From Bradyrhizobium sediminis (lineage in GTDB: Bacteria; Pseudomonadota; Alphaproteobacteria; Rhizobiales; Xanthobacteraceae), in NCBI RefSeq assembly GCF_018736085.1, contig NZ_CP076134.1, positions 3,916,501-3,980,500 of the forward strand: a stretch of 64,000 bases of DNA. The letters run 5' to 3'. The position numbers were made by a program, and so were the translations under genes. Below are positions 3,075 through 26,859 of this stretch, one piece after another. The notes below the pieces were generated by a model. The model was not told the origin of the DNA, made no database searches, and saw only the letters and a program-made list of their open reading frames with translations. Positions within the stretch are counted from its first letter, which is position 1. Each line of letters begins with the position of its first letter.

Positions 3075-3114
3075 TGTCTCTTTCCGATCTGAAGTCGGGT
3101 TATGGAGTAATCCG

Positions 3115-3195
3115 GTCATTCCGGGGCGATACGGAAGCATCGAACCCGGAATCTCGAGATTCCGGGTCTGGTCCTTCGGACCATCCCGGAATGAC
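3115..3195. repeat. Palindromic intergenic repeat, family E
   Basis: The unit begins gtcattccggggc and ends ccatcccggaatgac, with an inner palindrome cccggaatctcgagattccggg. It fills the gap between the crotonase and the acyl-CoA ligase. A second member of the family is at about 54450. Confidence 0.7.
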
Positions 3196-3204
3196 GATGA
3201 AGAT

Positions 3205-4020
3205 TCATCCAACGTCCGCAAACCGCGGCGCGCGCTTGTCGATGTTGGCGCTGACAGCCTCGAGCTGGTTGGGGCTGCCCATCAGTTTCATCTGCTCGAC
3301 GGATTCGGCGAGCAGCGCCGGACCGGGATCGACGGACAGATTGTTCAGCATGCGCTTGCAGGCGCGGATCGCGTCCGGGCTCTTGCCCGCGATCTCGCGT
3401 GCGAGTTCGAAGGCGGTGGCGCGCGGATCGTCGCAGATGCGGGTGGCGAGGCCATAACTCAGGGCCTCCTGCGCCGAGAAAATCCGCCCGGTATAGGTGA
3501 GTTCGCGCAGGATATCGTCGCGGACCAGGCTGGCCAGGATCGGCGTCCCCGCCATGTCAGGCACCAGCCCCCATTTGATCTCCATGATCGACATCCGGGC
3601 GTCGGGGGTTAGGAAACGCATGTCGGCGCCGAGCGCGAGCTGAAATCCGCCGCCGAACGCCACGCCCTGGATCGCAGCGATCACCGGCACCGGCAGCTGC
3701 CGCCAGCCCCAGACCGCAGCTTGCGGGAAATTGGCCTTGCCATGGGTGCGCGCGGAAAGGTCGCGCTTTTCGCCGCCCGCGATCCCGTTGCCGCCCTTTT
3801 CCTTCATGGCGGCAAAGCGTCCCATATCGAGACCGGCGCAAAACGCTCGGCCTTCGCCGGACAATACTACCGCTCGCACGCCTTTTTCCTGGGCCAGCCG
3901 GGAGGAAGCGGCAACCAGCGCCTCGAACATCGCGGCATCGAGCGCGTTCATCTTGTCCGCCCGCATCAGGCGGACGTCGGCGACGCCCTCCGAAATCGTG
4001 ATCTTGACGCGATCTTCCAT
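3205..4020 (-). CDS. Enoyl-CoA hydratase/isomerase (crotonase) family protein
   Basis: Crotonase-fold protein of 271 residues, the usual size. The two oxyanion-hole segments are visible, GRAFCAGLD (58-66) and GVAFGGGF (119-126). The position that holds the first catalytic glutamate of classical hydratases is Gln here (GGGFQ, about 127), while a second acidic residue is kept in IMEIKWGLVPD (Glu about 147). That makes a plain hydratase less certain; isomerase or another crotonase activity is possible. The ATG at 4020 follows a good ribosome site (AGGGGAG, about 6 nt away); an upstream ATG at 4086 lacks one. It is divergent from the SDR at 4128 and codirectional with the acyl-CoA ligase. Confidence 0.88.
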   Translation of the reverse strand: MEDRVKITISEGVADVRLMRADKMNALDAAMFEALVAASSRLAQEKGVRAVVLSGEGRAFCAGLDMGRFAAMKEKGGNGIAGGEKRDLSARTHGKANFPQAAVWGWRQLPVPVIAAIQGVAFGGGFQLALGADMRFLTPDARMSIMEIKWGLVPDMAGTPILASLVRDDILRELTYTGRIFSAQEALSYGLATRICDDPRATAFELAREIAGKSPDAIRACKRMLNNLSVDPGPALLAESVEQMKLMGSPNQLEAVSANIDKRAPRFADVG

Positions 4021-4074
4021 CCGAATTCTCCCCTGCACTTCTCTTTGTTGCGGCTTTACAGAAAGGCGTTGGAC

Positions 4075-4108
4075 GGATTTAGTCAATCAACCAATTAACT
4101 GACAATCC
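4075..4108. promoter_or_regulatory. Possible operator between divergent acyl-CoA genes
   Basis: An A/T-rich island in otherwise GC-rich DNA holds an imperfect dyad: ggatt...aatcc outer arms and gtca...tgac inner arms around a tcaaccaatt core. It sits between the crotonase (minus) and SDR (plus) starts, where a TetR-type regulator of acyl-CoA genes would be expected to bind. The inner and outer symmetry centres differ by one base, so the call is tentative. Confidence 0.35.
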
Positions 4109-4127: not shown

Positions 4128-5000
4128 ATGTTCAGCGAACAACTCCTTGCCGGCCGGCGCATCCTCGTCACCGGAGGCGGCACCGGGCTCGGCAAATCCA
4201 TGGCCGAGCGCTTCCTTCAATTGGGCGCCGAAGTCCATATCTGCGGCCGCCGCAAGAGCGTCTGCGACGAAACTGCAACCGAATTGATGGACCTGCACGG
4301 TGGGCGTGTGGTCAGCCACGGCGTCGATATCCGCAACGCCATGGCCGTCGACGAGATGATCGAGGCGATCTGGACCAGCGGCCCCCTCACCGACCTCATC
4401 AACAACGCCGCGGGCAATTTCATCTCGCGCTCGGAAGACCTGACCCCGCGCGGCTTCGATGCGGTCGCCAACATCGTGATGCACGGCACCTTCTATGTAA
4501 CCCATGCGGTGGGCCGCCGCTGGATCGCCGCCAGGCAGCGCGGCAATGTGGTCTCGATCACCGTCACCTGGGTGCGCAACGGCTCGCCCTATGTGGTGCC
4601 GTCGGCGATGAGCAAATCCGCGATCCACGCCATGACCATGTCGCTCGCGGTGGAATGGGGCAAATACGGCATCCGCCTCAACACCATCGCGCCCGGCGAA
4701 ATCCCGACCGAGGGCATGAGCAAGCGCATCAAGCCCGGCGACGAGGCCGGCGCCCGCACCAAGGCGCAGAACCCGATGGGCCGCGTCGGCACCATGGAGG
4801 AACTGCAGAATCTTGCGGTGTTCCTGATTTCCGGCGGCTGCGACTGGATCAACGGCGAGACCATCGCCATGGACGGCGCCCAGGCGCTGGCGATGGGCGG
4901 CAACTTCTACCAGTTGCGCGACTGGTCGGATGCCGACTGGAACCAGGCGCGCGAGTCGATCAAGGCGCAGAACGAAAAGGACCGCGCTGCAAGGGGGTGA
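4128..5000 (+). CDS. SDR family oxidoreductase resembling 2,4-dienoyl-CoA reductase
   Basis: Short-chain dehydrogenase of 290 residues. The nucleotide-binding motif TGGGTGLG (15-22) and NNAAG (92-96) are intact. The usual catalytic Tyr-x-x-x-Lys is not: the segment is VVPSAMSKSAIHAM, with Lys about 163 and Ser at the tyrosine position. The same Ser-x-x-x-Lys pattern is known from mitochondrial 2,4-dienoyl-CoA reductase (PSASAKAG), and the following AVEWGKYGIRLN also resembles it. The likely role is NADPH reduction of 2,4-dienoyl-CoA during unsaturated fatty acid breakdown. It lies next to a crotonase and between two acyl-CoA ligases, which fits. Confidence 0.85.
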   Translation: MFSEQLLAGRRILVTGGGTGLGKSMAERFLQLGAEVHICGRRKSVCDETATELMDLHGGRVVSHGVDIRNAMAVDEMIEAIWTSGPLTDLINNAAGNFISRSEDLTPRGFDAVANIVMHGTFYVTHAVGRRWIAARQRGNVVSITVTWVRNGSPYVVPSAMSKSAIHAMTMSLAVEWGKYGIRLNTIAPGEIPTEGMSKRIKPGDEAGARTKAQNPMGRVGTMEELQNLAVFLISGGCDWINGETIAMDGAQALAMGGNFYQLRDWSDADWNQARESIKAQNEKDRAARG

Positions 5001-5227: not shown

Positions 5228-6805
5228 ATGTCCGAGACCCAGGAACCGGCCAACCTCGCCGACATGGTGCGGGCGCGGGCGAAGGCCCGCGGCGATGCCA
5301 TCGCCTATGAATTCGACGGACGCCAGACCTCGTTCGCCGAGTTCGACATCAAGACCAACCGCGTCGCCAACGCGCTGATCGCGCTCGGGGTCAAGCCGGG
5401 CGAACGCATCGCCTATCTCGGCAAGAACAGCGACATCTATTTCGAACTGCTGATGGGCGCGATCAAGGCCAATGTGGTGATGGCGCCGGTGAACTGGCGG
5501 CTGGCGGGGCCGGAAGTCGCCTTTATCGTCGATGACTGCAAGGCGCCGGTGCTGTTCGTCGGCCCCGAATTCATCGCCCAGGTCCGCAATATCCTGCCGC
5601 AGCTGCCGAGCGTTCGCCACGTCGTCACCACCGAAGGCGGCGCGCCGGAATGGCAGGATTTCACGGCGTGGCGCGACGCTGAGAGCAGCGACGACCCGAA
5701 GGTCCCGATCGACCGCAAGGACATCGCGATCCAGCTCTACACCTCCGGCACCACGGGCAAGCCGAAAGGCGCGATGCTGTCGCATGCCAACTTTCTCAAT
5801 CTGGTGGAAACCGGCCGCGACCAGAAGCCCGACTGGAACAAATGGTCTGTTGACGACGTCTCGCTGGTGGCAATGCCGATCTTCCATATCGGCGGCTCCG
5901 GCTGGGGCGTGATGGGCCTCTATCACGGCGCCAGGGGCGTCATCGCGCGCGAGTTCGATCCCACCAAGGTGCTGGATTTCTTCGAGCAGTCCGGAATTAC
6001 AAAGCTGTTCATGGTGCCGGCCGCGATGCAGTTCGTGGTGCGGCAGCCGCGCGCACGTCAGGTGGATTTCTCGCGGCTGAAATACATGCTCTATGGCGCA
6101 TCGCCGATCCCGGCGGCGCTGCTGAAGGAATGTATCGAGGTCTTCAAATGCGGCTTCGTGCAGATGTACGGCATGACCGAGACCACCGGCACCATCGTGG
6201 CGCTGCCGCCGGAAGATCATGTCGAGGGACTGGACCGGATGCGCTCGGCCGGCAAGGCGCTGCCCGGCATTGAACTTGCGATCCTCGATGCCAACGGCAA
6301 CCAGCTGCCGCCGGGCGAAGTCGGCGAGATCGCGACCCGCTCCGGCTCCAACATGGCCGGCTACTGGAATCTGCCGGAGGCCACCGCCAAGACGCTCGGC
6401 AGCGACGGCTGGCTGCGCACCGGCGATGCCGGCTATATGGACAAGGACGGCTACCTCTACATCCACGACCGCATCAAGGACATGATCATCTCGGGCGGCG
6501 AGAACATCTACCCCGCCGAGGTCGAGAGCGCGATCTGCGACCATCCCGACGTCGCCGAAGCCGCTGTCATCGGCATCCCCGACGACAAGTGGGGCGAAGC
6601 GGTCAAGGCGATCGTGGTGATGAAGCCGGGCAAGAGCGCAACCTCATCCGACATCATCAACTTCACCCGCGAACGCATCGCCGGCTTCAAGACGCCGAAA
6701 TCGGTCGACTTCCTCGATGCGCTGCCGCGCAACCCCTCCGGCAAGATTCTGCGGCGTCATTTGCGCGATCCGTATTGGGCGGGGAAAGACCGGCAGGTGA
6801 ATTGA
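5228..6805 (+). CDS. Fatty-acid/acyl-CoA ligase (AMP-forming)
   Basis: Second ANL-superfamily acid:CoA ligase, 525 residues. Motifs: LYTSGTTGKPKGAM (170-183), MYGMTETTG (313-321), GYW and TGDAGYMDKDGY (398-409), DRIKDMIISGGENIYPAEVE (414-433), and the C-terminal PSGKILRR with the catalytic lysine near 506. The ATG at 5228 follows a GGGAGAAAC ribosome site. It is only distantly similar to the ligase at 1530-3074, so the two probably act on different acids. Its end is followed by a family B hairpin. Both ligases finish with the same RDPYW tail, a feature shared by many rhizobial FadD-like proteins. Confidence 0.93.
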   Translation: MSETQEPANLADMVRARAKARGDAIAYEFDGRQTSFAEFDIKTNRVANALIALGVKPGERIAYLGKNSDIYFELLMGAIKANVVMAPVNWRLAGPEVAFIVDDCKAPVLFVGPEFIAQVRNILPQLPSVRHVVTTEGGAPEWQDFTAWRDAESSDDPKVPIDRKDIAIQLYTSGTTGKPKGAMLSHANFLNLVETGRDQKPDWNKWSVDDVSLVAMPIFHIGGSGWGVMGLYHGARGVIAREFDPTKVLDFFEQSGITKLFMVPAAMQFVVRQPRARQVDFSRLKYMLYGASPIPAALLKECIEVFKCGFVQMYGMTETTGTIVALPPEDHVEGLDRMRSAGKALPGIELAILDANGNQLPPGEVGEIATRSGSNMAGYWNLPEATAKTLGSDGWLRTGDAGYMDKDGYLYIHDRIKDMIISGGENIYPAEVESAICDHPDVAEAAVIGIPDDKWGEAVKAIVVMKPGKSATSSDIINFTRERIAGFKTPKSVDFLDALPRNPSGKILRRHLRDPYWAGKDRQVN

Positions 6806-7538: not shown

Positions 7539-8691
<1,153 letters not shown>

Positions 8692-9109: not shown

Positions 9110-10384
9110 CTAATGCTTCCCCGCCCCCATATATCCGAACAGGAATCCCGCGACCTTCCGCTTCTGGATTTCCTCGCTGCCTTCGGTGATGCGGTAGCGA
9201 CGGTGATGGCGGTAGATGTGTTCGAACGGCTTGTGGCGTGAATAGCCCATGCCGCCATGCACCTGCATGGCGCGGTCGGCGGCCTCGCAGCACAGCCGGT
9301 TCGCCCAGAAATTGCACATCGAGACCCGGTCGGACAGCGTGTGCTCGACCTGGGCCTGGGTCAGCTGGTCCATCTCCCAGGCGGTCTTGCGGATCAGAAG
9401 CCGCAGCATCTCGGCTTGCGTCGCCAGTTCCACCAGCGGCCACTGGATCGCCTGGTTCTCGGCCAGCGCCTTGCCGAACGGCTTGCGCTCGCGGGCGTAT
9501 TTCACGCTTTCATTGATGCAATAGACCGCAGCGCCCAGCGAACTCGCCGCCTGCCGGATGCGATTTTCGTGGACGAAGCATTGCGCCAGCGACAGGCCGC
9601 GGCCGATTTCGCCGAACAGCGCGTCGTCGGGCACGAACACGTCGGTAAAGCTGACGCGCGGATGATCGGTCGGCATGTTGAAGGTCCACATGTACTCCTC
9701 GACCTTCACGCCTTTGGCTTTCGCCGGCACCAGGAAACAGGTGATGCCGCGGGCATCGCCGTCATTGCCTGACGTGCGGGCAAACAGCGCGCAGTGGGTG
9801 GCGACATGCATGCCGGTGGTCCACATCTTCTCGCCGTTGATCACCCAGCCCTTGACGCCGTCGCGGGTCGCCTCGACCGCGCGGGTTTCCATGTGGGTGG
9901 CGTCCGAACCGTGCTCGGGCTCGGTCAGACCGAAGGTGATGCGGTATTTGCCGGTGATCGAACCGTCGATCATGGCCTTCTGGTCGTCGCGGCCGTAGCG
10001 GTCGAGCATGGTGACGATCGGCAGGTTGCCGACGATGGAATGCTCGTTCTGCAGGTCGTTGTGCAGGCCGAGCCCCTTGGCCGCGAAATGCTCGCGGATC
10101 ACGGCCATCCAGAGATTGGAGCCGTCCTTGCCGCCATAGCGCTTCGGGATCGCGAAGCGCAGATGGCCGGCGGCATCGGCGAGATTCTTGGCCTTGCGCA
10201 GCAGCACTTCCCAGTCATGCCGCGGCAGGCCGCCGTTGTCGAAATCGGTGCGCGCCCATTCGCGGCGATGGTCGAAGAAGCGGATGTTATCGTCGGCCTC
10301 TTCGAGCGGCTTGATCTCGCGGGCGATGAAGCGGTCGAGTTCGTCGAGATAGGCGACCAGATCGGCCGGCAGATTGAAATCCAA
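9110..10384 (-). CDS. Acyl-CoA dehydrogenase
   Basis: FAD-dependent alpha,beta-desaturation of an acyl-CoA, 424 residues. Visible are GLTEPEHGSDA (152-162) at the FAD site, the C-terminal RERKPFGKAL, QVHGGMGYSRHKPFEH (374-389) and YRITEGSEEIQ, with Glu about 401 at the catalytic-base position of the classical family. No ATG fits the N-terminus. A TTG at 10384 preceded by CTCCGGGAGAG starts a protein beginning xDFNLPADLVAYLDEL, which matches the family's normal opening; the frame upstream of it looks non-coding. It is divergent from the crotonase at 10608. Substrate unknown. Confidence 0.9.
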   Translation of the reverse strand: MDFNLPADLVAYLDELDRFIAREIKPLEEADDNIRFFDHRREWARTDFDNGGLPRHDWEVLLRKAKNLADAAGHLRFAIPKRYGGKDGSNLWMAVIREHFAAKGLGLHNDLQNEHSIVGNLPIVTMLDRYGRDDQKAMIDGSITGKYRITFGLTEPEHGSDATHMETRAVEATRDGVKGWVINGEKMWTTGMHVATHCALFARTSGNDGDARGITCFLVPAKAKGVKVEEYMWTFNMPTDHPRVSFTDVFVPDDALFGEIGRGLSLAQCFVHENRIRQAASSLGAAVYCINESVKYARERKPFGKALAENQAIQWPLVELATQAEMLRLLIRKTAWEMDQLTQAQVEHTLSDRVSMCNFWANRLCCEAADRAMQVHGGMGYSRHKPFEHIYRHHRRYRITEGSEEIQKRKVAGFLFGYMGAGKH

Positions 10385-10607
10385 GGCGGTCTCTCCCGGA
10401 GATATCGTTATCGTCGATTTGCGTTTAGGCGCTGCGAGGCGCTGCTGCTCGGATCGATTAAGGTGAGAAGACGACGGCCAAGTCAAGCAACCGCATGGGG
10501 CTTGGCACGCGCAGGCGCTTTGCGTAATTGGATGGTATCGGACGGCGGGCACACGCTACTATCCCGGCCAATATTCTTCGCCGCAGAAAATCGAAATGGG
10601 AGCCAAC

Positions 10608-11387
10608 ATGGACCTGAAATTCTCCAAGGTAACGCGCAAGGGCCCGGTCACGATCGTGACGCTGTCGCGCCCCGAAGTGTACAACGCGCTGCATACCGAC
10701 GCCCATTTCGAGCTGCAGAAGGTGTTCGACGATTTCTCTGCCGATCCGGAACAATGGGTGGCGATCGTCACCGGCGCCGGCGACAAGGCGTTCTGCGCCG
10801 GCAACGACCTGAAGTGGCAGGCGGCTGGCGGCAAGCGCGGCTGGGACAAGGGCGGCTTTGCCGGGCTGACCTCGCGCTTCGACTGCGACAAGCCGATCAT
10901 CGCCGCCGTCAACGGCGTCGCGATGGGCGGCGGCTTTGAAATTGCGCTGGCCTGCGACCTCATCATCGCATCGGAGAATGCCACCTTCGCGTTGCCCGAG
11001 CCGCGTGTCGGCTTAGCTGCGTTGGCTGGCGGCGTGCACCGGCTGCCGCGCCAGATCGGGCTGAAGCGCGCCATGGGCATGATCCTGACCGCGCGCCATG
11101 TCGGCGCCAAGGAAGGGCTCGAACTCGGCTTCGTCAACGAGGTGGTGCCGCAGGGTGAAGCGCTGGCGGCGGCCGAGCGCTGGGCGGAGACGATCTGCAA
11201 GAACTCGCCGATGTCGATCCGCGCCTCCAAGCAGGCGATCCAGAAGGGGCTGTCGGTGTCGCTGGAGCAGGCGATATCGGAGCAGCGCGAGTATCCTGCG
11301 GTGAAGGCGATGGCAGCGTCGCAGGATTACATCGAGGGCCCGAAGGCGTTTTCGGAGAAGCGCCCGCCGAAATGGGTGGGGAAGTAA
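10608..11387 (+). CDS. Enoyl-CoA hydratase
   Basis: Crotonase-family protein of 259 residues with both catalytic glutamates in place: GVAMGGGFEIAL (Glu about 111) and ALPEPRVGL (Glu about 131). The oxyanion-hole segment is DKAFCAGNDLK (59-69). It is therefore a credible 2-enoyl-CoA hydratase. Two ATGs lie close together. The second (10608) has GGGAG at a proper distance and is preferred; the first (10596) would add four residues. It is divergent from the acyl-CoA dehydrogenase, giving a short oxidation-hydration pair. Confidence 0.92.
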   Translation: MDLKFSKVTRKGPVTIVTLSRPEVYNALHTDAHFELQKVFDDFSADPEQWVAIVTGAGDKAFCAGNDLKWQAAGGKRGWDKGGFAGLTSRFDCDKPIIAAVNGVAMGGGFEIALACDLIIASENATFALPEPRVGLAALAGGVHRLPRQIGLKRAMGMILTARHVGAKEGLELGFVNEVVPQGEALAAAERWAETICKNSPMSIRASKQAIQKGLSVSLEQAISEQREYPAVKAMAASQDYIEGPKAFSEKRPPKWVGK

Positions 11388-11410
11388 GGGGACGCATCCC
11401 CCTATCCGCT

Positions 11411-11494
11411 GTCATTGCGAGCGAAGCGAAGCAATCCATGGATCAACAGAAAGAAAGATGGATTGCTTCGTCGCAGGTGCTCCTCGCAATGACG
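11411..11494. repeat. Family A inverted repeat
   Basis: gtcattgcgagcgaagcgaagcaatcca at the left and the inverted arm tggattgcttcg...cctcgcaatgacg at the right. It lies between the convergent 3' ends of the enoyl-CoA hydratase and the DUF6285 gene. Confidence 0.85.
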
Positions 11495-11513
11495 ATGCGG
11501 GTAGGCGGTCGCA

Positions 11514-11894
11514 CTAAGCGCCCTTACTTCCCAACTCCCTCTTATATGACGCATAATTCGGCTGATCGACCGCGAGCTTGTCCATCGTGGTCTGCCAGAG
11601 GTGTTCGGCCAACCCAGGCGTCTGCAGGTCGGCTTCGCCGCTGGCGATGCGATCGGCGAGCATGCGGTTGAGTTCGCCGAGCGAGCCCTGCTGGCCGAGC
11701 AATTGCGACAGCCGGGCGAGTTCCGCCGTATCGCTGCCCTCTTCGAGCTCGAGTTGGCGCGTCACCAGATCGAGCGCGTTGATCGAAACCCGCAGCTTGA
11801 ACGCGTTGTGCCCGCTGATCAGGGGTGCGATGTCGTTGCGCAGGAAATCCGCGACCGCCTTGATCAGTTCTTTCGGTGTCGGTTCGTCCTGCAT
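11514..11894 (-). CDS. DUF6285 domain protein (LvaB-like partner of the phosphotransferase)
   Basis: Small, acidic, mostly helical protein of 126 residues (MQDEPTPKELIKAVADFLRN at the start, with ALDLVTRQLELEEGSD in the middle). Its ATG is one base past the stop of the phosphotransferase, so the two are surely cotranscribed. Genes of this kind are regularly found next to APH-type phosphotransferases. In Pseudomonas putida levulinate catabolism a small protein, LvaB, is needed with the kinase LvaA. I infer the same partnership here from size and position; direct homology to LvaB should be checked. Confidence 0.75.
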   Translation of the reverse strand: MQDEPTPKELIKAVADFLRNDIAPLISGHNAFKLRVSINALDLVTRQLELEEGSDTAELARLSQLLGQQGSLGELNRMLADRIASGEADLQTPGLAEHLWQTTMDKLAVDQPNYASYKRELGSKGA

Positions 11895-11895
11895 C

Positions 11896-12885
11896 TCAGC
11901 CTCGCTCTCTCGGTGCCAGCAACCGCAACAGATCGATCTCGGTTTCCGAGGAGCGGCGGCCGATCATGGCGCGTTCGATGGAGTGCTCGGGCGAGAGGCG
12001 AAAACGCTGCATCATGCCGCAGCACATGATGCCCCAGCGCAGCGTGCCCATCACTTCCCAGAATTTGACGCGATCGGGATCGACGCGGCGGCCGGCCGCC
12101 TCGTAACCGGCAAACAGTTCCTCGCGCGTGCCGAAACCGCCGACCGGCTTGTCGATCTCGCCGAAGCGCCACGAATTGACGCAGATCCAGCCGAGGTCCT
12201 CCATCGGATCGCCGAGATGCGCAAGCTCCCAGTCCAGCACCGCGCGCACGCCGTCGGGGCCGATGATGAGATTGCCATGGCGGAAATCGCCGTGCACCAG
12301 CGTCACTTCCCCGGATGGTCCGGGATCGTGGTCGCGCAGCCAGCGCAGCGCCAGCTCGAACACCGGCCGCGGCCAATCAAAGCTGCGGTAGTCCCGTTCG
12401 AACTCGTCGATTTCCTTCGCCGCCGTCATGCGGCGAAGCTCGGGCAATTGCGCCGGATCCAGTCCGTGGATGCCGGCCAGTACCTTGCCGATCTGGCGCG
12501 CCAGGATCGGACGCGCCGATGCAAACTCGGCGTCGCGCAGGATCTTGCGCGGGATGGTTTCGCCCTCGACCCGCGCCATGATGAAGCCGGTGCCGAGTTC
12601 GTCCTGCGGCTGCAGCACATGCAGCACCCGCGGCGACGGCACGCCCGCATCGTAGGCGCGCTGCATCAGGATGGCCTCGGCATCGAGCCCGGCCGCACGC
12701 GAGGGCGCTGCGCCATAGCCCGGCGGCGCGCGGCGCAGGATCGCGCCTATGTTGCCGCCGGGATGGACAATGTCGAACGACCAGGTCTCCTGGCTGGCGC
12801 CGCCGGAGAGCCGGGCCGCGTTGATCACGCCGGTCGCGCCCTCACACCACGTCGCGACGCAACGCCCGAGCGCTTGCTCCATCAT
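11896..12885 (-). CDS. APH-type phosphotransferase (ACAD10/11 kinase-like, LvaA-like)
   Basis: Aminoglycoside-phosphotransferase fold of 329 residues. Visible: glycine-rich LSGGASQETW (27-36), ILRRAPPG (49-56), the catalytic loop LVHGDFRHGNLI (196-207; Asp200, Asn205) and metal-site VLDWELAHLGDP (216-227). The RAPPG segment and DWELAHLGDP belong to the subgroup fused to acyl-CoA dehydrogenase in vertebrate ACAD10/ACAD11 and to LvaA, which phosphorylate 4-hydroxyacyl-CoA. It is not expected to be an antibiotic kinase. The start codon overlaps the preceding crotonase stop by ATGA, and the stop is one base before the DUF6285 start, making a tight three-gene operon. Alternative start one codon downstream (ATGATG). 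Confidence 0.88.
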   Translation of the reverse strand: MMEQALGRCVATWCEGATGVINAARLSGGASQETWSFDIVHPGGNIGAILRRAPPGYGAAPSRAAGLDAEAILMQRAYDAGVPSPRVLHVLQPQDELGTGFIMARVEGETIPRKILRDAEFASARPILARQIGKVLAGIHGLDPAQLPELRRMTAAKEIDEFERDYRSFDWPRPVFELALRWLRDHDPGPSGEVTLVHGDFRHGNLIIGPDGVRAVLDWELAHLGDPMEDLGWICVNSWRFGEIDKPVGGFGTREELFAGYEAAGRRVDPDRVKFWEVMGTLRWGIMCCGMMQRFRLSPEHSIERAMIGRRSSETEIDLLRLLAPRERG

Positions 12886-13673
12886 TTGCCCTTGAACTTT
12901 GCGGGCCGCTTCTCGAGGAACGCGGTGACGCCTTCCTTGAAATCTTCCGCCGAACCCGCCAGCCGCTGCGATTCAAATTCGAGGTTGAGCTGCTCCTCGA
13001 ACGAGTTGTCGGGGCTTTCCCAATACATCTTGCGGATCAGCGACAGCGCGATGGTCGGGCCGTTCGCCAGCTCATGAGCAAGCTTCATGGTCTCTTCCGT
13101 CAAGGCCGCGTCGTCATAGACCCGGTTGACCAGACCCCATTCCAGCGCCTTCTCGGCCGGCAGGCGTTCGCCCAGCAGCGAAAGCTCCACCGAGCGCGCC
13201 TTGCCGATCAGCCGCGGCAACAGCCAGGTCGAGCCGCAATCCGGCACCAGGCCGATGCGGCGGAACGCCTGCAGGAAGTACGACGAGCGCGCGCACAGGA
13301 TGATGTCGCCCATCAGCGCGAAGCTCATGCCGGCGCCGGCGGCCGGTCCATTGACCGAGGTGACGATCGGGCAATGCAGGTTGCGCAGACGGCGCAGGAA
13401 CGGATGGAATGCGGTTTCGAGCGAAGAACCGGCATTGCTCTTGCCCGGCTTCTGGTTGTTGCGGCCCTGCAGATTGGCGCCGGTGCAGAATGCGCGGCCC
13501 GCGCCGGTCAGAACGAGGCAACGCACCTCCGCCTTCTTCTCGTCGATGGCGTCGAGCGCCTCGCCGAGACCGCCCAGCATATCGATGGAGACCGCGTTCA
13601 TGACCTCCTGATGGTCGAGCTTGAGAACCGCGACCGGTCCATCGAAATCGAGCGTGACGTGCTTGAATTGCAT
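12882..13673 (-). CDS. Enoyl-CoA hydratase/isomerase, PaaG-like
   Basis: Crotonase of 263 residues. The usual hydratase glutamates are absent: the first is replaced in GAGMSFAL and the second region reads FRRIGLVPDCGSTWLLP, with Asp about 145. A single aspartate in a VPDCG context is the pattern of PaaG-type Delta3,Delta2-enoyl-CoA and oxepin-CoA isomerases, so isomerase activity is more likely than hydration. It could serve either the local acyl-CoA pathway or the phenylacetate pathway at 52-59 kb, which lacks its own paaG in this window. The ATG at 13673 follows AGGAAAC. It heads the operon with the phosphotransferase (4-bp overlap) and DUF6285. Confidence 0.87.
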   Translation of the reverse strand: MQFKHVTLDFDGPVAVLKLDHQEVMNAVSIDMLGGLGEALDAIDEKKAEVRCLVLTGAGRAFCTGANLQGRNNQKPGKSNAGSSLETAFHPFLRRLRNLHCPIVTSVNGPAAGAGMSFALMGDIILCARSSYFLQAFRRIGLVPDCGSTWLLPRLIGKARSVELSLLGERLPAEKALEWGLVNRVYDDAALTEETMKLAHELANGPTIALSLIRKMYWESPDNSFEEQLNLEFESQRLAGSAEDFKEGVTAFLEKRPAKFKGK

Positions 13674-13850
13674 TGTTTCCTCGTGCGTTGTAGCCCGCGT
13701 TGTAAGCCGCGGTGGGCCGGATCTGAACTCTCGGGCCATATTTGATTTTCTGCGCGGCCTTGTCCATGGTTGGGCCAGTACACCTGCCCGCCATCGGACG
13801 CACATCTAAAGTGCGCCAGACCAAATGAAAACACCCCAAAGGAAACTCTC

Positions 13851-14630
13851 ATGAGCATTTTCGACCTCACCGGCCGCGTGGCTGTCATCACCGGCGGTAA
13901 CGGCGGCATCGGTCTTGGCATCGCGCAGGCGCTGGCCGCCGCCGGCTGCAACGTCTCGATCTGGGGCCGCAACGCCGACAAGAACAAGGCCGCTGCGGCG
14001 ACCATGGCGGGTGCGAAGGGCAAGATCGATACGCGTGTCTGCGATGTCAGCGACGCCGCTTCGGTCAAGGCTGCGATGGCCGCGACGCTGGACAGCTTCG
14101 GCCGGGTCGACGGCTGCTTCGCCAATGCCGGCATCGGCGGCGGCGGCAGGCGCGCCTTCATCGAGCGCACCGAGGAAGAATGGCGCACGATGTTCGCCAC
14201 CAATCTCGACGGCGTATTCCACGTGTTTCAGGCCGCCGCCCGGCATATGACCGAGCGCGCCGCATCGGGCGATGCCTTCGGCCGGCTGGTCGCGACCTCG
14301 AGCCTCGCCTCGCTGTTCGGCACCGCGCGCAACGAGCACTACGCCGCGACCAAGGCCGGCATCAACGCGCTGTGCCGCGCGCTCGCGGTCGAGCTGGCGC
14401 GCCACGGCGTCACCGCCAACGCCATCCTGCCCGGCTGGATCAAGAGCGACATGACCGCCGGCATCATGGCCAACGACAAGTTCGTCGCCAATGTGATGCC
14501 GCGGATCCCGGTGCGGCGGTTCGGCGAGCCCTCGGATTTCGGCGGCATCGCCGTCTATCTCATGAGCAAGGCGTCGTCCTACCACACCGCCGACTGTTTC
14601 GTGATCGACGGCGGCTATACCGCGTTCTGA
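13851..14630 (+). CDS. SDR family oxidoreductase (candidate 3-hydroxyacyl-CoA dehydrogenase)
   Basis: Classical short-chain dehydrogenase of 259 residues with a full catalytic set: TGGNGGIG (14-21), ANAGIG (91-96), Ser about 151, and Tyr164-x-x-x-Lys168 in HYAATKAG. It ends with VIDGGYTAF, the normal family tail. The ATG at 13851 follows AAAGGAAAC. It is divergent from the crotonase-phosphotransferase operon and upstream of an ACAD10/11-like dehydrogenase. In the lva pathway an SDR (LvaD) oxidises the 3-hydroxyacyl-CoA product, and this gene could do the same. Substrate is inferred from neighbours only. Confidence 0.88.
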   Translation: MSIFDLTGRVAVITGGNGGIGLGIAQALAAAGCNVSIWGRNADKNKAAAATMAGAKGKIDTRVCDVSDAASVKAAMAATLDSFGRVDGCFANAGIGGGGRRAFIERTEEEWRTMFATNLDGVFHVFQAAARHMTERAASGDAFGRLVATSSLASLFGTARNEHYAATKAGINALCRALAVELARHGVTANAILPGWIKSDMTAGIMANDKFVANVMPRIPVRRFGEPSDFGGIAVYLMSKASSYHTADCFVIDGGYTAF

Positions 14631-14786
14631 TTTTCCGCGACGCGGACAAACCCGGCACCTGAAGAACTCGCCTGCCCCGTCTGCTTGTAAAGGCCGGGCG
14701 GGCGTCTAGACTATCGGCAAGAGCGCTTCAGACAGATCGCCCGGCAATGGGGCAGTAACGATCTGCACGAATGGGAGGATCACCAG

Positions 14787-16061
14787 ATGAAACATGACTA
14801 CGTGCCCCGAATGACGTCCTACACCCTCAATCCGGAGGACGAACTCAACGATCTCAGAATGTCGGATCGGGTCCGGCCGCTTTACGACCATGTGCGAAAG
14901 TTCATCCGGGAAACAGTCGAGCCGATGTCGGTCGAGTTCTACCGGCATGGCGAGAAGAAAACCGATCGCTGGAGCTTTACGCCCCAACAGCTCGAGGTGC
15001 TGGGAAAAGCCAAGGACAAGGCCAAGGAAGTCGGACTGTGGAACTTCTTTCTGCCCGATGCGGAGACCGGTGAAGGCCTGAAAAATCTCGACTACGCCTA
15101 TATCGCCGCCGAACTCGGCAAAAGTCCGCTGGCCTCGGAGACCATGAACTGCTCGGCGCCGGACACCGGCAACATGGAAGTGCTGGAGCGTGTCGGCACC
15201 AAGGCGCAGAAGGAGAAGTGGCTGAAGCCGCTGTTGAACGGTGAAATCCGCTCCGCCTATGCGATGACCGAGCCGAATGTCGCGTCGTCCGACGCCAAGA
15301 ACATCTCGACCACCGCAAAGCTCGTCGGCGACGAATGGGTGATCAACGGCGAGAAATATTACATCTCCGGCCTCGGCGACCCCCGCTGCAAGATCATGAT
15401 TGTGATGGTGAAGACCAATCCGGATGCACCGCCGAGCAAGCAGCAATCGCAGATCCTGGTGCCGAAGGACACGCCCGGCGTCGAGATCATCGGGCCGATG
15501 CACGTGTTCGGCCACGACCATGCCCCGCGCGGTCATATGCATCTGCGCTTCAACAATGTCAGGGTGCCCAAGGACAACATGCTGCTCGGCGAAGGCCGCG
15601 GTTTCGAGATTTCGCAGGTCCGCCTCGGCCCCGGCCGCATCCATCACTGCATGCGGACGATCGGCAAGGCGGAAAAGGCGCTCGACCTGATGGTTTCACG
15701 CGGCCTGACGCGCGAAGCCTTCGGCAAGAAGATCGCGCATCTCGGCGGCAATCTGCAGATCATCGCGCAGGCGCGCTGCGAAATCGAGGCGATGCGTCTG
15801 ATGGTGCTGAAGGCCGCCAAGGCCATGGACGTGCTCGGCAACAAGGACGCGCGCATCTGGGTCAGCATGGTCAAGGCCATGGTGCCGGAGCGCGCGGCAA
15901 AGATCATCGACCAGGCCATCCAGATGCACGGCGCCACCGGCATCTCGCAATGGACGCCGCTGGCCGAAATGTACACCGACGTGCGCCACCTCCGCTTCGC
16001 CGACGGTCCCGACGAAGTGCACTGGATGGTGGTCGGCCGCCACGAACTGAGCATGCCGTAG
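14787..16061 (+). CDS. Acyl-CoA dehydrogenase, ACAD10/11-like (LvaC-like)
   Basis: Acyl-CoA dehydrogenase of 424 residues. FAD-site segment AMTEPNVASSDAKN (159-172), RGLTREAFGKKI (305-316), and QMHGATGISQWTPLA (379-393). At the end the classical Y-E-G catalytic segment is replaced by RFADGPDEVHWMVVGR (403-418). The ADGPDEVH form marks the ACAD10/11 subgroup, whose natural substrates are 4-hydroxyacyl-CoA derivatives after phosphorylation. With the phosphotransferase and DUF6285 genes 2-3 kb away this suggests a split version of that enzyme. The start is supported by GGGAGGAT upstream of the ATG. Confidence 0.9.
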   Translation: MKHDYVPRMTSYTLNPEDELNDLRMSDRVRPLYDHVRKFIRETVEPMSVEFYRHGEKKTDRWSFTPQQLEVLGKAKDKAKEVGLWNFFLPDAETGEGLKNLDYAYIAAELGKSPLASETMNCSAPDTGNMEVLERVGTKAQKEKWLKPLLNGEIRSAYAMTEPNVASSDAKNISTTAKLVGDEWVINGEKYYISGLGDPRCKIMIVMVKTNPDAPPSKQQSQILVPKDTPGVEIIGPMHVFGHDHAPRGHMHLRFNNVRVPKDNMLLGEGRGFEISQVRLGPGRIHHCMRTIGKAEKALDLMVSRGLTREAFGKKIAHLGGNLQIIAQARCEIEAMRLMVLKAAKAMDVLGNKDARIWVSMVKAMVPERAAKIIDQAIQMHGATGISQWTPLAEMYTDVRHLRFADGPDEVHWMVVGRHELSMP

Positions 16062-16071
16062 GCTCAACCTT

Positions 16072-16099
16072 CGCCCTCTCTCCGCTTGCGGGGAGAGGG
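16072..16099. repeat. Short hairpin between genes
   Basis: gccctctctccgcttgcggggagagggc is a near-perfect palindrome in the 76-base gap between the acyl-CoA dehydrogenase and the flavin reductase-like gene. It may reduce read-through or stabilise the upstream message. Confidence 0.5.
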
Positions 16100-16137
16100 C
16101 GGCCAAACGGCAAAATCCGTCAAACAGGAAATGCACG

Positions 16138-16755
16138 ATGGAATACGCCCCAGAGGATCTGACGTCCCGTGAGCGCTACAAGGTGCTGACGGGGTTCGTC
16201 CTGCCGCGGCCGATCGCCTGGGTGACGACGATCGGACCGACCGGCGTGGTCAACGCTGCGCCGTTCAGCTTCTTCAACGTGTTCTGCGAGGATCCGCCGC
16301 TCTGCATGTTCGCCGCCAACCCGCGGCCCGATGGCCGCGTCAAGGACACGGTGGTCAACATCCAGCGCACCGGCGAGTTCGTGGTCAATCTCGCCGATGA
16401 GCCGCTGGCGCGCGCGATGCACGATTCCAGCGGCGACTTTCCACCTGAAGTCGGCGAGCCCGATTACCTCGGCCTGAAACTGGCGCCGTCGACAAAGGTC
16501 GCGGTGCCGCGACTGGCCGACGCGCCGTGGGCGATGGAGTGCAAGACCTGGAAGACGATCGATGTGAACGGCAACCGCCAGCTGATCATGGGTGAAGGCA
16601 TCCATTTCCACATCCGCGACGAATTGTGGGATGCCGCTTCGATGCGGGTGAACATGGACCGCTATCACCCGGTCGGCCGCATGTTCGCCGACCGCTACTG
16701 CCGCACCGACGACCGAATCGTGTTCCCGCCGGCCGAAGGGACACCTGCAGCGTGA
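16138..16755 (+). CDS. Flavin reductase-like FMN-binding protein
   Basis: 205 residues of the flavin reductase/flavoredoxin (NtaB/HpaC/DIM6-like) split-barrel family. Typical pieces are RPIAWVTTIGPTGVVNAAPFS near residues 24-45, then FFNVFCEDPPLCMFA and the phosphate-binding RVKDTVVNI. Members reduce FMN with NAD(P)H, often for a partner oxygenase, or simply bind flavin. It follows the acyl-CoA dehydrogenase on the same strand with a 76-base gap and is convergent with the flavin monooxygenase gene. That monooxygenase carries its own NADPH/FAD site and should not need a separate reductase. Partner unknown. Confidence 0.85.
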   Translation: MEYAPEDLTSRERYKVLTGFVLPRPIAWVTTIGPTGVVNAAPFSFFNVFCEDPPLCMFAANPRPDGRVKDTVVNIQRTGEFVVNLADEPLARAMHDSSGDFPPEVGEPDYLGLKLAPSTKVAVPRLADAPWAMECKTWKTIDVNGNRQLIMGEGIHFHIRDELWDAASMRVNMDRYHPVGRMFADRYCRTDDRIVFPPAEGTPAA

Positions 16756-16770
16756 GGCGCAAACCGCACC

Positions 16771-18444
16771 CTACGATAGCGCCGCCGCTCTTTGCGGTTG
16801 CTCTGCCGCCGTCATCGTAAAGCCCTCGTATCCCTTGGCCGCGACGTCGTTGCAAATCTGCCGGTAAACCCCGACGCCGCCGATATAAGGCATGAAGACC
16901 TGCGGCTTGCCGGGGATGTTGGCGCCCATGTACCAGGAATTGGCCTGCGGATAGAGCGTGCCCTGAGCGACTTCGTTGACGTGCGCTACCCACTTGTCCT
17001 CGGCGGCCTTATTCGCTTCGATGATGTCGAGGCCGCGGTCGCGCATATGGGCGAGGCAGTCGGCGATCCAGTCGACATGCTGCTCGATCGAAACGATCAT
17101 GTTGGAGAGCACCGACGGACTGCCGGGCCCGGTGATGATGAACAGATTGGGGAAGCCAGCGCTCATCAGGCCGAGATAGGTCTTGGGACCCTCGGCCCAT
17201 TTCTGGTTCAGCGCCTGCCCGTTGCGTCCGCGGATGTCGATCTTTGCAACTGAACCCGTCATGGCGTCGAAGCCGGTTGCAAGGACCAGCGCGTCGACTT
17301 CGTAATCCTCATCCGCGGTCCGCACCGCGTTGGGCAGGATCTCCTGAATCGGATTCGACCTGATGTCGACCAGCGTCACGTTCGGACGATTGAAGGTCGC
17401 GTAGTAATCGGTGTCAACGCAGATGCGCTTCGACCCGATCGGATGGTTGTCGGGCTGCAGCAGCTTTGCGGTTCGTGGATCCTTGACGATCTCGGCGATC
17501 TTGTCGCGGACGAAATCGGCGGCGGTGTCGTTGGCGGCCTTGTCGAGCGCCAGATTGTTGTAGGCCATCATGAAGGTCAGGCCGCCGCGGCTCCAGCGCG
17601 TTTCGTATTTCGAGCGCCGCTCGCTATCGCCATCGTCGAGCGCGCCGCGATCGGGCATGTCGGTATAGATGCCGTTACGCGCCTCTTCCCGCGCAAAGCG
17701 CCTGATTTCCGGGTATTTTGCGCGAAACGCCTCGCGCTCCTCCGCCGTCAGCGCGGCGTTGCGGGCCGGTACGCTGAAGTTGGCCGTGCGCTGGAACACC
17801 GTGAGCTGGCTCGCCTGCTCGGCAATGATGGGAACCGACTGGATCGCCGACGATCCCGTACCGATGACGCCGACGCGCAGGCCGGCGAAATCTATCCGTT
17901 CATGCGGCCAGTTGCCGGTGTGATAGACTTTGCCTTTGAAATCCGACAGACCCTTGATATCGGGCACGCGCGCGTTCGACAGGCAGCCGGTGGCGAGCAC
18001 GACGTGTTTCGCCGTCACCGTCTTGCCGTCGGAAGTCGTCACCGACCATGTGTTTGAGCTTTCGTCGAAGGCCGCCCGATCGACGCGGGTATTGAGCTGG
18101 ATATCGCTGCGCAGTTTGAAGCGGTCGGCGACGTGGTTGGCGTATTTCAGGATTTCGGGCTGCGGCGCGCAGCGCTCGCTCCAGTTCCATTCCTGCTGCA
18201 GTTCGTCCGAGAACGAATAGGAATACTGCATGCTTTCGACATCGCAGCGCGCCCCGGGGTAACGGTTCCAGTACCAGGTGCCGCCGACGTCGCCGCCCTG
18301 CTCGTAGACCCGAGCCGACAATCCCTGCCCGCGCAGCTTATGCAGCATGTACATGCCGGCAAAACCCGCGCCGACCACGACGACGTCGTAAGCCTCGGTG
18401 CCTGCGGTCTGGCCTTTGCCTGAAATGGATTGCACGGCGGACAT
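16771..18444 (-). CDS. Flavin-containing monooxygenase, Baeyer-Villiger type
   Basis: NADPH/FAD monooxygenase of 557 residues. The FAD dinucleotide fold is VVVVGAGFAGMYML (21-34), followed by GGTWYWNRYPGARCD (54-68), the class motif. The Baeyer-Villiger fingerprint FKGKVYHTGNWP is at 169-180 and the NADPH fold GVIGTGSSAIQS at 192-203. Such enzymes insert oxygen next to a ketone, giving esters or lactones from cyclic ketones, steroids or other alicyclics. The gene stands alone on the minus strand, convergent with the flavin reductase-like gene and divergent from the thiolase-like gene. An ATG start at 18444 has GGGAG upstream. Substrate cannot be predicted from sequence. Confidence 0.9.
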   Translation of the reverse strand: MSAVQSISGKGQTAGTEAYDVVVVGAGFAGMYMLHKLRGQGLSARVYEQGGDVGGTWYWNRYPGARCDVESMQYSYSFSDELQQEWNWSERCAPQPEILKYANHVADRFKLRSDIQLNTRVDRAAFDESSNTWSVTTSDGKTVTAKHVVLATGCLSNARVPDIKGLSDFKGKVYHTGNWPHERIDFAGLRVGVIGTGSSAIQSVPIIAEQASQLTVFQRTANFSVPARNAALTAEEREAFRAKYPEIRRFAREEARNGIYTDMPDRGALDDGDSERRSKYETRWSRGGLTFMMAYNNLALDKAANDTAADFVRDKIAEIVKDPRTAKLLQPDNHPIGSKRICVDTDYYATFNRPNVTLVDIRSNPIQEILPNAVRTADEDYEVDALVLATGFDAMTGSVAKIDIRGRNGQALNQKWAEGPKTYLGLMSAGFPNLFIITGPGSPSVLSNMIVSIEQHVDWIADCLAHMRDRGLDIIEANKAAEDKWVAHVNEVAQGTLYPQANSWYMGANIPGKPQVFMPYIGGVGVYRQICNDVAAKGYEGFTMTAAEQPQRAAALS

Positions 18445-18764: not shown

Positions 18765-20279
18765 ATGGCAAACGCAGCGCAATCCGACGACCGCATCCCC
18801 GTCATTGTCGGCGTCGGCGAAATCACCGATCGACCGAAGGAAATCGCCGATGGCCTCGAGCCGCTCGCTTTGCTGGAACAAGCGCTGAAGCGCGCGGAAG
18901 CGGACTCAGGCGGCAAACTGCTCGGCGACATCGACTCGCTCGACGTCGTCAATTTCCTGAGCTGGCGCTACCGCGATCCGGAGAAACAGCTCGCCGGCCG
19001 TCTCGGCATCAAGCCGGCGCACCTCTATTACGGCCCGGTCGGCGGCGAAAGCCCGATCCGCTATCTGCACGAGGCCGCGCAACGCATCGCACGCGGCGAA
19101 TGCAGCGTCGCCGCGGTCTGCGGTGCCGAAGCGCAGTCGACCGCAACCAAGGCGGAGCGCGCCAAGATCGAACTGCCGTGGACGCCCTTCGCCCATGACG
19201 TGGAAGAGCCGAAGCGCGGCGCCGCGTTCCAGAAACCAATGGCCGTGAAGCTCGGCGTGTTCAGGCCGATCACCGTCTATCCGCTCTACGAGACCGCGAC
19301 CTCGGCGCATTGGGGCCAGACTCCGCGCGAAGCGATGGCGGAATCGGGCGCGCTCTGGTCGGTCTATTCAAAGGTGGCGGCGGAAAATCCCAATGCCTGG
19401 CTGAAGCGGCGTTTCAGCCCTGAGGAGATCACGACGCCGACGCCGGAGAACCGGCTGATCGCCTGGCCCTACAACAAGCTGATGGTGGCCAATCCGACCG
19501 TCAATATGGGCGGAGCGGTTCTCCTGACCAGCCTTGCCAAGGCGCGGGCCGCGGGCGTGGCTGAGGACCGCATCGTTCACGTCTGGGGCGGCGCATCGGC
19601 GGAGGAGCCGCGGGATTATCTCATCCGCGATCAGTTCTACGAGAGCCATCCGCAGAATGCCGTGCTCAAGGCGGTGATGGATCTGGTCGGCGGCAACGGC
19701 AGGACGTTCGACGCGATCGAACTCTACAGCTGCTTTCCCTGCGTGCCGAAAATGGCGCGGCGGACGTTGGGCCTGGGCCCCGACGTACAGCCGACGGTGA
19801 CCGGCGGTCTCACCTTCTTCGGCGCGCCGCTCAACACCTACATGACGCATGCGGCCTGCGCGATGGTGCGCCGCTTGCGTAACGGCGCCAAACTCGGCCT
19901 GCTCTACGGCCAGGGCGGTTTTGTCACCAAGCATCACGGGCTGGTCCTGTCGCGGCAGGCGCTTGGGCACGCACTCGCGCAGGATACCAGCGTGCAGGCG
20001 GAAGCCGACCGGCATCGCGGCAAGGTGCCCCAATTCGTCACCGAGGCCAGCGGCAAGGGTAAGGTCGAAAGCTTTACCGTGCTCTATGGCCGCGGCGGCG
20101 AAGTCGAGCACGGCGTAGTGATGATGCGGACGGTCAATGATTGCCGCGCGCTGGCGCGGGTGCCCGCCAATGACGGCGCGACGCTGGCGCATCTAACCAA
20201 CATGGACCGCACGCCGGTAGGCTCGCTTGGCGATATCGCCACGGCCGAAGACGGCGTGCTGGAGTGGCGGCACCCGTAA
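18765..20279 (+). CDS. Thiolase-like protein (acetyl-CoA acetyltransferase family)
   Basis: Thiolase-fold protein of 504 residues, longer than classical thiolases (~390) because of an extra C-terminal region (after about residue 400) of the type called TLP1 add-on C. The segment that normally carries the nucleophilic Cys (C-S-S-G) reads VGGESPIRYLHEAAQ here (92-106), so the canonical cysteine is missing. The later AVCGAEAQST (117-126) corresponds to the conserved glycine-rich strand. SCP2-thiolase-like proteins of this type may act in side-chain or branched-acid metabolism. ATG at 18765 with AGGAAGG and AAGAAG upstream. Whether it has thiolase activity is open. Confidence 0.82.
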   Translation: MANAAQSDDRIPVIVGVGEITDRPKEIADGLEPLALLEQALKRAEADSGGKLLGDIDSLDVVNFLSWRYRDPEKQLAGRLGIKPAHLYYGPVGGESPIRYLHEAAQRIARGECSVAAVCGAEAQSTATKAERAKIELPWTPFAHDVEEPKRGAAFQKPMAVKLGVFRPITVYPLYETATSAHWGQTPREAMAESGALWSVYSKVAAENPNAWLKRRFSPEEITTPTPENRLIAWPYNKLMVANPTVNMGGAVLLTSLAKARAAGVAEDRIVHVWGGASAEEPRDYLIRDQFYESHPQNAVLKAVMDLVGGNGRTFDAIELYSCFPCVPKMARRTLGLGPDVQPTVTGGLTFFGAPLNTYMTHAACAMVRRLRNGAKLGLLYGQGGFVTKHHGLVLSRQALGHALAQDTSVQAEADRHRGKVPQFVTEASGKGKVESFTVLYGRGGEVEHGVVMMRTVNDCRALARVPANDGATLAHLTNMDRTPVGSLGDIATAEDGVLEWRHP

Positions 20280-22325: not shown

Positions 22326-22497
22326 CTCAAGGACCCCCTAGTTTGCCGAAATCCGGAATTGGCGATGGCAAACGGAAACCAGCGACCAACGCATGCAGGT
22401 AGCAACGATACCGTGCCTTAACCTAGGGCTGGTTAATTCCGGGTTTCGTGGGACCACGGAGCCATGCACCGAATGGCCGGGCGACATTTGCCCGACA

Positions 22498-22533
22498 TAA
22501 AAAAGCCCGGTCCCTTCACGGGCCGGGCTCTTT
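22498..22533 (-). terminator. Rho-independent terminator of the second chemoreceptor
   Basis: On the minus strand, AGCCCGG..CCGGGCT stem followed by TTTTTT, directly after the 22555-24585 gene. This is the cleanest intrinsic terminator in the window and shows that the two chemoreceptor genes are separate transcription units. Confidence 0.85.
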
Positions 22534-22554
22534 GATTGCCGTCGGCGGTTGTTG

Positions 22555-24585: not shown

Positions 24586-24781
24586 TTCATCCAACCTTCT
24601 TTTTCTTCTTGGAATCGGGATTTGCCCTGGCGAATCAAATCCCGCGCGCGGCCGGCGCTGTGACGCGAATACCGCTCAAGGTTGTTAGGTCCGGTTAATT
24701 TAAATTTCCGTGAAACTAGGGACCATCCGATCGAGCCTCGCCTGATCGGGGCGAACCGCGCGCGGAGCTTCATGTCAGCGC

Positions 24782-26838: not shown

Positions 26839-26859
26839 CGACTGTCCTCTTGTTGAATT

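Follow-up and report, generated by a model that had tools for sequence, protein, structure and literature searches.

Positions 11514-16061 of a 64,000-nucleotide stretch of the Bradyrhizobium sediminis genome (the window, bases 3916501-3980500 of a single contig of 5,554,208 bases) contain genes for a kinase of the aminoglycoside phosphotransferase (APH) type, a DUF6285 protein, a hydratase-family protein, a short-chain dehydrogenase/reductase (SDR) and an acyl-CoA dehydrogenase (ACAD). These genes are part of a larger catabolic (fat-burning) gene island. On balance, the locus is best understood as the phosphorylation step of this island, which would degrade an oxygenated carboxylic acid: a hydroxyacyl-CoA would be phosphorylated, and subsequent loss of the phosphate would give an enoyl-CoA. 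Phosphorylation followed by loss of phosphate is the route by which 4-hydroxy acids enter beta-oxidation in animals and bacteria. The chemistry is known, also from mice and other bacteria, and the window kinase is a separate branch with a predicted function. The sequences show directly which genes are present, their active-site residues and clades, that the locus is conserved, and that the DUF6285 and kinase genes are tightly coupled. The five genes are as follows.

11514..11894, minus strand: DUF6285 protein, 126 amino acids (PF19802, E 6e-32), LvaB-type kinase partner
11896..12885, minus strand: APH-type kinase of clade B, 329 amino acids (PF01636, E 2e-36), predicted hydroxyacyl-CoA kinase
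12882..13685, minus strand: enoyl-CoA hydratase/isomerase family protein, PaaG-like (NCBIfam PRK05981 equivalog)
13848..14630, plus strand: SDR-family oxidoreductase, 260 amino acids (PF13561, E 6e-59), LvaD-like in a general sense only
14787..16061, plus strand: ACAD10/11-type ACAD, with mouse ACAD11 as the best PDB relative

The initial annotation of this DNA had placed the phosphotransferase, the DUF6285 protein, the SDR and the ACAD within 4.5 kb, and the open reading frame listing and Pfam and NCBIfam scans found every one of the named genes there, together with the motifs RAPPG, DWELAHLGDP and RFADGPDEVH. It had also described an isomerase gene whose stop overlaps the kinase start. The two genes do share an ATGA, and the first of them is a PRK05981 equivalog (492.6 bits, curated NCBIfam cut-off 351), with PaaG as its second match at 276.2 bits, under the cut-off of 345.15. 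Between the kinase stop and the DUF6285 start there is a single base. The hydratase, kinase and DUF6285 genes form a single run on the minus strand and the SDR and ACAD genes diverge from them on the plus strand, so that this single locus probably comprises two transcription units. Scanning 11300-16200 for promoters and terminators gave 1 and 2 matches, respectively, not above shuffled sequence.

Fourteen genomes of the genus were examined at the locus (the window, L063-L069, L072 and L280-L284). A phylum sample contributed ten of these, which were all its members of the genus, and the remaining four were chosen among the DUF6285-containing genomes of the genus. The hydratase, kinase and DUF6285 genes, with the SDR and ACAD genes on the opposite strand, occur together in all 14, in two of which (L064 and L280) the ACAD is more than 6 kb from the kinase. 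The arrangement is not due to chance, because it is kept throughout. A DUF6285 match is present in 34 of 36 sampled genomes of the genus, the window's own genome counted, and each of the ten genomes of the phylum sample has both DUF6285 and the ACAD.

The kinase and its DUF6285 partner

Among the closest described systems is the levulinate pathway lvaABCDE of Pseudomonas putida (PMC6692424), which likewise consists of a kinase, a small partner protein, an ACAD with an Asp base, an SDR and an acyl-CoA synthetase. The catalytic residues are kept in the window kinase (HGDFRHGN at 198 and DWE at 218, with Asp200 and Asn205). It scores 53.6 bits against mouse ACAD11 and 65.4 bits against 3dxp; the best scores of other kinases against mouse ACAD11 are 60.6 bits for the Pseudomonas operon kinase and 254.5 bits for the kinase of a split pair elsewhere in the window's own genome (2449155). 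An identity as an antibiotic-resistance APH was rejected, the NCBIfam matches being weak (29.5 bits or less). Named close relatives among the best 120 of 7,999 matches include kinases of Bradyrhizobium sp. (89-90% identical) and of one Reyranella metagenome-assembled genome (88%).

A tree of 93 kinases resolves three clades: C, canonical (9 rows, support 100/100); V, the Pseudomonas operon type (34 rows, 98/93); and B, which contains the window kinase (50 rows, 96/95). V and B lie together across a long branch from C. Clade B was sampled by way of DUF6285 and clade V by way of DUF6285 or a V-type profile, and the tree is therefore silent on clades outside this sample. On this phylogeny, the window kinase is neither LvaA nor an ACAD10/11 kinase, and belongs to a third clade, sister to the LvaA-type clade. 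Of the proposal that it resembles LvaA and the ACAD10/11 kinases, the distant relation and the kept catalytic residues stand, but the kinase falls outside both clades. The three clades separated here share the annotation of aminoglycoside or family phosphotransferase.

The DUF6285 protein scores 110.5 bits against PF19802 (curated cut-off 28.1) and is the sole match in its genome. It is predicted to be all-helical. A model of the protein alone has a pLDDT of 86.5 and a pTM of 0.56; with this model, Foldseek retrieved 21 PDB matches at E up to 10, none of which reached 0.001. Pseudomonas genomes, among them that of P. putida 31753, have a divergent regulator followed by the kinase, DUF6285, the ACAD, the SDR and the acyl-CoA synthetase, and lvaR-ABCDE is the operon layout described for P. 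putida (PMC6692424). LvaB is very probably a DUF6285 protein, because DUF6285 follows the kinase in operons of this layout in Pseudomonas other than KT2440; the equation of DUF6285 with LvaB implied in the initial annotation is supported by synteny. The DUF6285 protein of L079 has 118 residues. The identities of L200/L201 to L079 (regulator 51, kinase 53, ACAD 78, SDR 69%) resemble those given for P. citronellolis against KT2440 (52, 59, 78 and 67%; PMC6692424). The same source reports lvaB as missing in P. citronellolis; in P. taiwanensis (L200), which has a similar layout, an iterated profile detects DUF6285 after the kinase.

Coupling between the two genes is tight. A search of 289 genomes of the class with the kinase only yielded 63 matches (E up to 1e-50), LvaA-type kinases among them. 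For 60 of these, DUF6285 lies directly downstream on the same strand; of the other three, two are the leading copy in a kinase tandem. A kinase profile found 80 loci of clade V, and DUF6285 is present at 78 of them; of the other two, L198 is truncated by a contig end and no DUF6285 was found in L239. The window locus and the lva-type operons examined agree in having DUF6285 immediately after the kinase. Tandem arrangements of kinase, kinase and DUF6285 are seen in L098 and L046.

The two genes are fused into one frame in 18 distinct cases (L047, L051, L053, L055, L078, L080, L081, L093, L099, L112, L114, L116-L118, L240, L247, L260 and L266), for which the best query is clade B in 11 and clade V in 7. 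All 120 listed relatives of one fusion (the best 120 of 2,581) have both Pfam domains, a list biased to fusions because the query region spanned both. An AlphaFold2 model of a clade-B fusion has a pLDDT of 91.7 and a pTM of 0.91, which supports a fixed arrangement of the predicted kinase and DUF6285 domains; the VIA-align list for this model covers mainly residues 2-337, so the DUF6285 part is barely tested there. DUF6285 is tied to the kinase partnership across many proteobacteria, and would be a required subunit of the kinase. The natural fusions can be expressed as one chain.

Tentatively, and with rather less confidence than we place in the phosphorylation step, DUF6285 may be an obligate structural subunit that defines a superfamily of hydroxyacyl-CoA kinases with two clades, apart from the ACAD10/11 kinases. 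Clade B would then act on distinct substrates, which might be hydroxyacyl-CoAs that are branched or come from an oxygenase or a lactone, and would have been newly paired in the genus with an ACAD10/11-type ACAD whose nearest kin work beside canonical ACAD10/11 kinases. The literature searched, which left most subscription journals outside, did not contain the word DUF6285, and its titles and abstracts held neither an assay of a clade-B kinase nor, with the original lva paper also outside the search, a description of the present gene combination.

The ACAD10/11-type dehydrogenase and the proposed reaction

The best PDB relatives of the window ACAD are mouse and human ACAD11 (8v3u, 8v3v and 2wbi, 380-391 bits; E 8e-116 for 8v3u), followed by the uncharacterised ACAD 4hr3 (374 bits), while the remaining chains listed score at most 137.7 bits. 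Six signature residues are kept: R279, R284, H286, H287, R290 and D406, which correspond to R626, R631, H633, H634, R637 and D753 of the mouse protein. Asp406 replaces the classical Glu base. In ACAD11, R626, H634 and R637 have been placed on the 4-phosphate by modelling and D753 is the catalytic base (PMC12440821). Judged by its residues and relatives, the window ACAD belongs to the ACAD10/11 group, as the annotation had proposed from the missing classical base. The likeness to mammalian ACAD10 and ACAD11 (PMC12440821, PMC11342911) thus extends to the best PDB match of the ACAD and to all signature residues, but in the window the kinase and the ACAD are separate polypeptides and the kinase has only its distant match to the ACAD11 kinase domain.

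Four of the aligned ACADs of the window's own genome carry the ACAD10/11 residues: the window ACAD and those at 2447608, 601879 and 4105489. The first of the other three belongs to a second, canonical split pair far from the window (2447608-2449826, ACAD followed by the kinase at 2449155). This ACAD shares the six residues and is 54% identical to that of the window, but its kinase is in clade C and has no DUF6285. No recognised kinase was found in the fetched 20 kb around the ACADs at 601879-602925 and 4105489-4106562, which have the full signature. The separation of kinase and dehydrogenase, which the initial annotation had taken as part of an undescribed combination, was rejected as a novelty: the two are already separate in the lva operon (PMC6692424), in bacterial orthologues (PMC11342911) and in the second pair of the same genome.

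In the proposed pathway, an acyl-CoA synthetase would form the CoA thioester, and the kinase with DUF6285 would transfer a phosphate from ATP to a side-chain hydroxyl of the hydroxyacyl-CoA. An SDR may form this hydroxyl from a ketone. Where a monooxygenase is present, which is so in a minority of the genomes, it may provide an upstream source of ester or lactone. The ACAD (14787-16061) would hold the phosphorylated acyl-CoA by R279, H287 and R290 and, using Asp406 as the base and its flavin, would perform oxidation, expulsion of phosphate and re-reduction to yield the 2-enoyl-CoA. The hydratases, an SDR, a conventional ACAD and a thiolase-like enzyme would continue beta-oxidation. We infer these activities and the order of the steps from PMC12440821, PMC11342911 and PMC6692424, and from the residues. 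By analogy with ACAD10/11 and Lva, the phosphorylated position is tentatively taken as C4.

A true lva-type pathway for levulinate or 4-hydroxyvalerate is improbable. It would explain the four shared protein families (kinase, DUF6285, Asp-base ACAD and SDR) and the nearby acyl-CoA synthetases, the nearer of which shares 34% identity with that of the Pseudomonas operon. However, the kinase lies outside the LvaA-type clade, and identities to the proteins of the presumed Pseudomonas lva operon are only 33% for the ACAD, which is closer to ACAD11, and 32% for the SDR. The latter value is of a generic level, and a specific match of the SDR to LvaD is not supported. The gene order and strands also differ: lvaR is divergent from lvaABCDE, whereas the window locus is itself divergently transcribed, has a hydratase gene overlapping the kinase start, and gave no LvaR-type match, either in the window or in 16 related loci. 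Levulinate was rejected as the leading specific substrate, the kinase, ACAD and SDR being far from those of the Pseudomonas operon and the regulator not being found. The predicted growth on 4-hydroxy acids, lactones or levulinate is therefore weak as far as levulinate is concerned, also because clade-B kinases elsewhere are rarely beside an ACAD10/11-type ACAD, while some hydroxy acid or lactone is plausible.

Neighbors of the kinases and dehydrogenases in other genomes

Partners of clade-B kinases were counted within 6 kb of 40 kinases at 38 loci, with the window's locus and its same-family counterparts left out. Several of the results weigh against the proposed phosphorylation step. An ACAD10/11-signature ACAD accompanies 86 of 93 kinases of clade V, but just 4 of the 40 of clade B. 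The type represented by the conventional ACAD of the island (ACAD2, 9110-10552) accompanies 9 of the 40 and none of the 93, which makes it the most frequent scored ACAD type for clade-B kinases at other loci; neither type is present for 27 of the 40. In L070 (G610, same family, other genus) the kinase, DUF6285 and part of the island are present without an ACAD of the window's subfamily, and the diverged second clade-B locus of G310, a genome of the window's genus (L082; kinase 49% and ACAD2 75% identical), lacks an ACAD10/11-type gene. At 13 loci in 10 genomes outside the genus, the ACAD subfamily of the window has no kinase of the three kinds in the fetched stretch. To this should be added that the kinase and ACAD are on opposite strands, and that the substrate of the clade-B kinase is a prediction.

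The surroundings of clade-B kinases are varied and include DUF502 with recG- and mfd-like genes, thiolases, a CoA-transferase and P450 (clusters named by Pfam from one representative each). At 10 or more loci (L083-L086, L088, L091, L092, L103, L104 and L109) the clade-B kinase and DUF6285 genes adjoin DUF502, with recG- and mfd-like genes close.

These neighborhoods suggest another function, which we regard as rather unlikely: the kinase and DUF6285 might act mainly with ACAD2 and the hydratases on a hydroxyl other than that at C4. This could be the tertiary or branched-chain hydroxyl of an acyl-CoA derived from a terpenoid or steroid, for example, or that of a free alcohol; the ACAD10/11-type ACAD would then serve another kinase or substrate. 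The ACAD2-type enzymes in the nine cases are 65-75% identical to that of the window, and in L071 the kinase, DUF6285, ACAD2 and a hydratase (67% identity) stand in a row. Some clade-B kinases have a P450 or CoA-transferase III gene within 5 kb (4 loci for each). In the fold search with a fusion homologue, the nearest solved folds include the 25-hydroxysteroid kinase (9fsg/9ft5; PMC8449060), which has the APH fold and phosphorylates a hydroxyl so that the phosphate can be eliminated. It differs in that its substrate is the tertiary alcohol of free steroids, and it scores 39.5 bits against the window kinase. On the other hand, activity of conventional ACADs on 4-phosphohexanoyl-CoA was undetectable (PMC12440821), and ACAD2 keeps the equivalent of the conserved R631 only and lacks the phosphate-binding residues. 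Of the 14 same-genus loci, all retain the ACAD10/11-type gene and 12 retain ACAD2.

The same neighborhoods could also mean that the kinase is a generic small-molecule APH kinase that does not act on acyl-CoAs and is in the island by chance. The low score to ACAD11, the 27 clade-B kinases with neither ACAD type and the DUF502 loci would fit such an enzyme. It is, however, very improbable, more so than an lva-type pathway, given that lva-type operon kinases, which also have a DUF6285 partner, belong to the sister clade, and that the locus is conserved across the genus.

The ACAD subfamily of the window is tight, with identities down to 72% and then a jump to 60% in 398 genomes of the phylum, and forms one clade with a support of 100/100. 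The ACAD tree has 78 rows, 71 of them different; 5 of 20 V-labelled rows, from Pseudomonas-like loci, look conventional (best query pACAD_3527k), fall at the root and were not used, and the placement of WIN_pACAD_4105k, on a long branch, is unsure. Among the next-closest ACADs (56-58% identical), 8 of 11 loci have a kinase with a canonical best query within 4 kb. Because no kinase was seen at the 13 loci of the subfamily outside the genus and its next-closest relatives are mostly beside a canonical one, the genus appears to have combined a DUF6285-type kinase with an ACAD from a stock usually paired with ACAD10/11 kinases; the argument is one of parsimony and gives no date. Outside the genus, the phylum sample has DUF6285 in 8 of 10 genomes with the ACAD subfamily, compared to 21 of 378 (Fisher p 1.5e-8), a co-occurrence that is given little weight because relatedness is uncorrected. 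The genus-wide locus is offered as a place to find the clade-B substrate.

The surrounding island

The other genes of the island are listed below with their occurrence in the 14 same-genus loci. Some of these stretches end before the outer genes; L069 is cut by a contig end, and the L072 stretch is without ACAD2, its hydratase and the second SDR.

1530..3221, minus strand: second acyl-CoA synthetase (PF00501, E 2e-70), 9/14, some stretches ending before the gene
3205..4086, minus strand: third enoyl-CoA hydratase-family gene (PF00378), 11/14
4128..5000, plus strand: second SDR (PF13561), 12/14
5228..6805, plus strand: nearer acyl-CoA synthetase (PF00501, E 1e-85), 11/14
9110..10552, minus strand: ACAD2, second ACAD, conventional (Glu base, without the phosphate-binding residues), 12/14
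10596..11387, plus strand: second enoyl-CoA hydratase-family gene (PF00378), 12/14
16138..16755, plus strand: flavin reductase-like protein beside the ACAD (PF01613), 8/14, window counted
16771..18444, minus strand: Baeyer-Villiger monooxygenase of the phenylacetone/steroid monooxygenase type (PDB 1w4x, E 7e-202), 4/14, window counted
18765..20279, plus strand: thiolase-like protein with a TLP1 C-terminal domain (NCBIfam PRK08257.1-5, 921 bits, cut-off 684), 11/14

The Baeyer-Villiger monooxygenase is a variable neighbor of the island; as a constant part of it, it was rejected, being found in only four of the loci, and the likelihoods given here do not depend on it. In seven other same-genus loci the thiolase-like gene is present without it, a few stretches ending too early to tell. 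In L155 (8113-11206), from another family, a monooxygenase 62% identical to that of the window directly precedes an ACAD of the window's subfamily.

An IS110-family transposase gene (7539-8540, minus strand) lies between the nearer acyl-CoA synthetase and ACAD2, and was not matched in any of the stretches examined from the other 13 genomes of the genus. Beyond the thiolase-like gene, two adjoining methyl-accepting chemotaxis proteins of almost equal length are encoded on the minus strand (20295-24594) beside the island. They are followed at 24782-27774, also on the minus strand, by genes for an SBD_N/NBD_C kinase, which we take to be of the four-carbon acid sugar kinase type, a TIM-barrel isomerase-like protein and a 3-hydroxyisobutyrate dehydrogenase-like protein, and then by a branched-chain-type ABC transporter.

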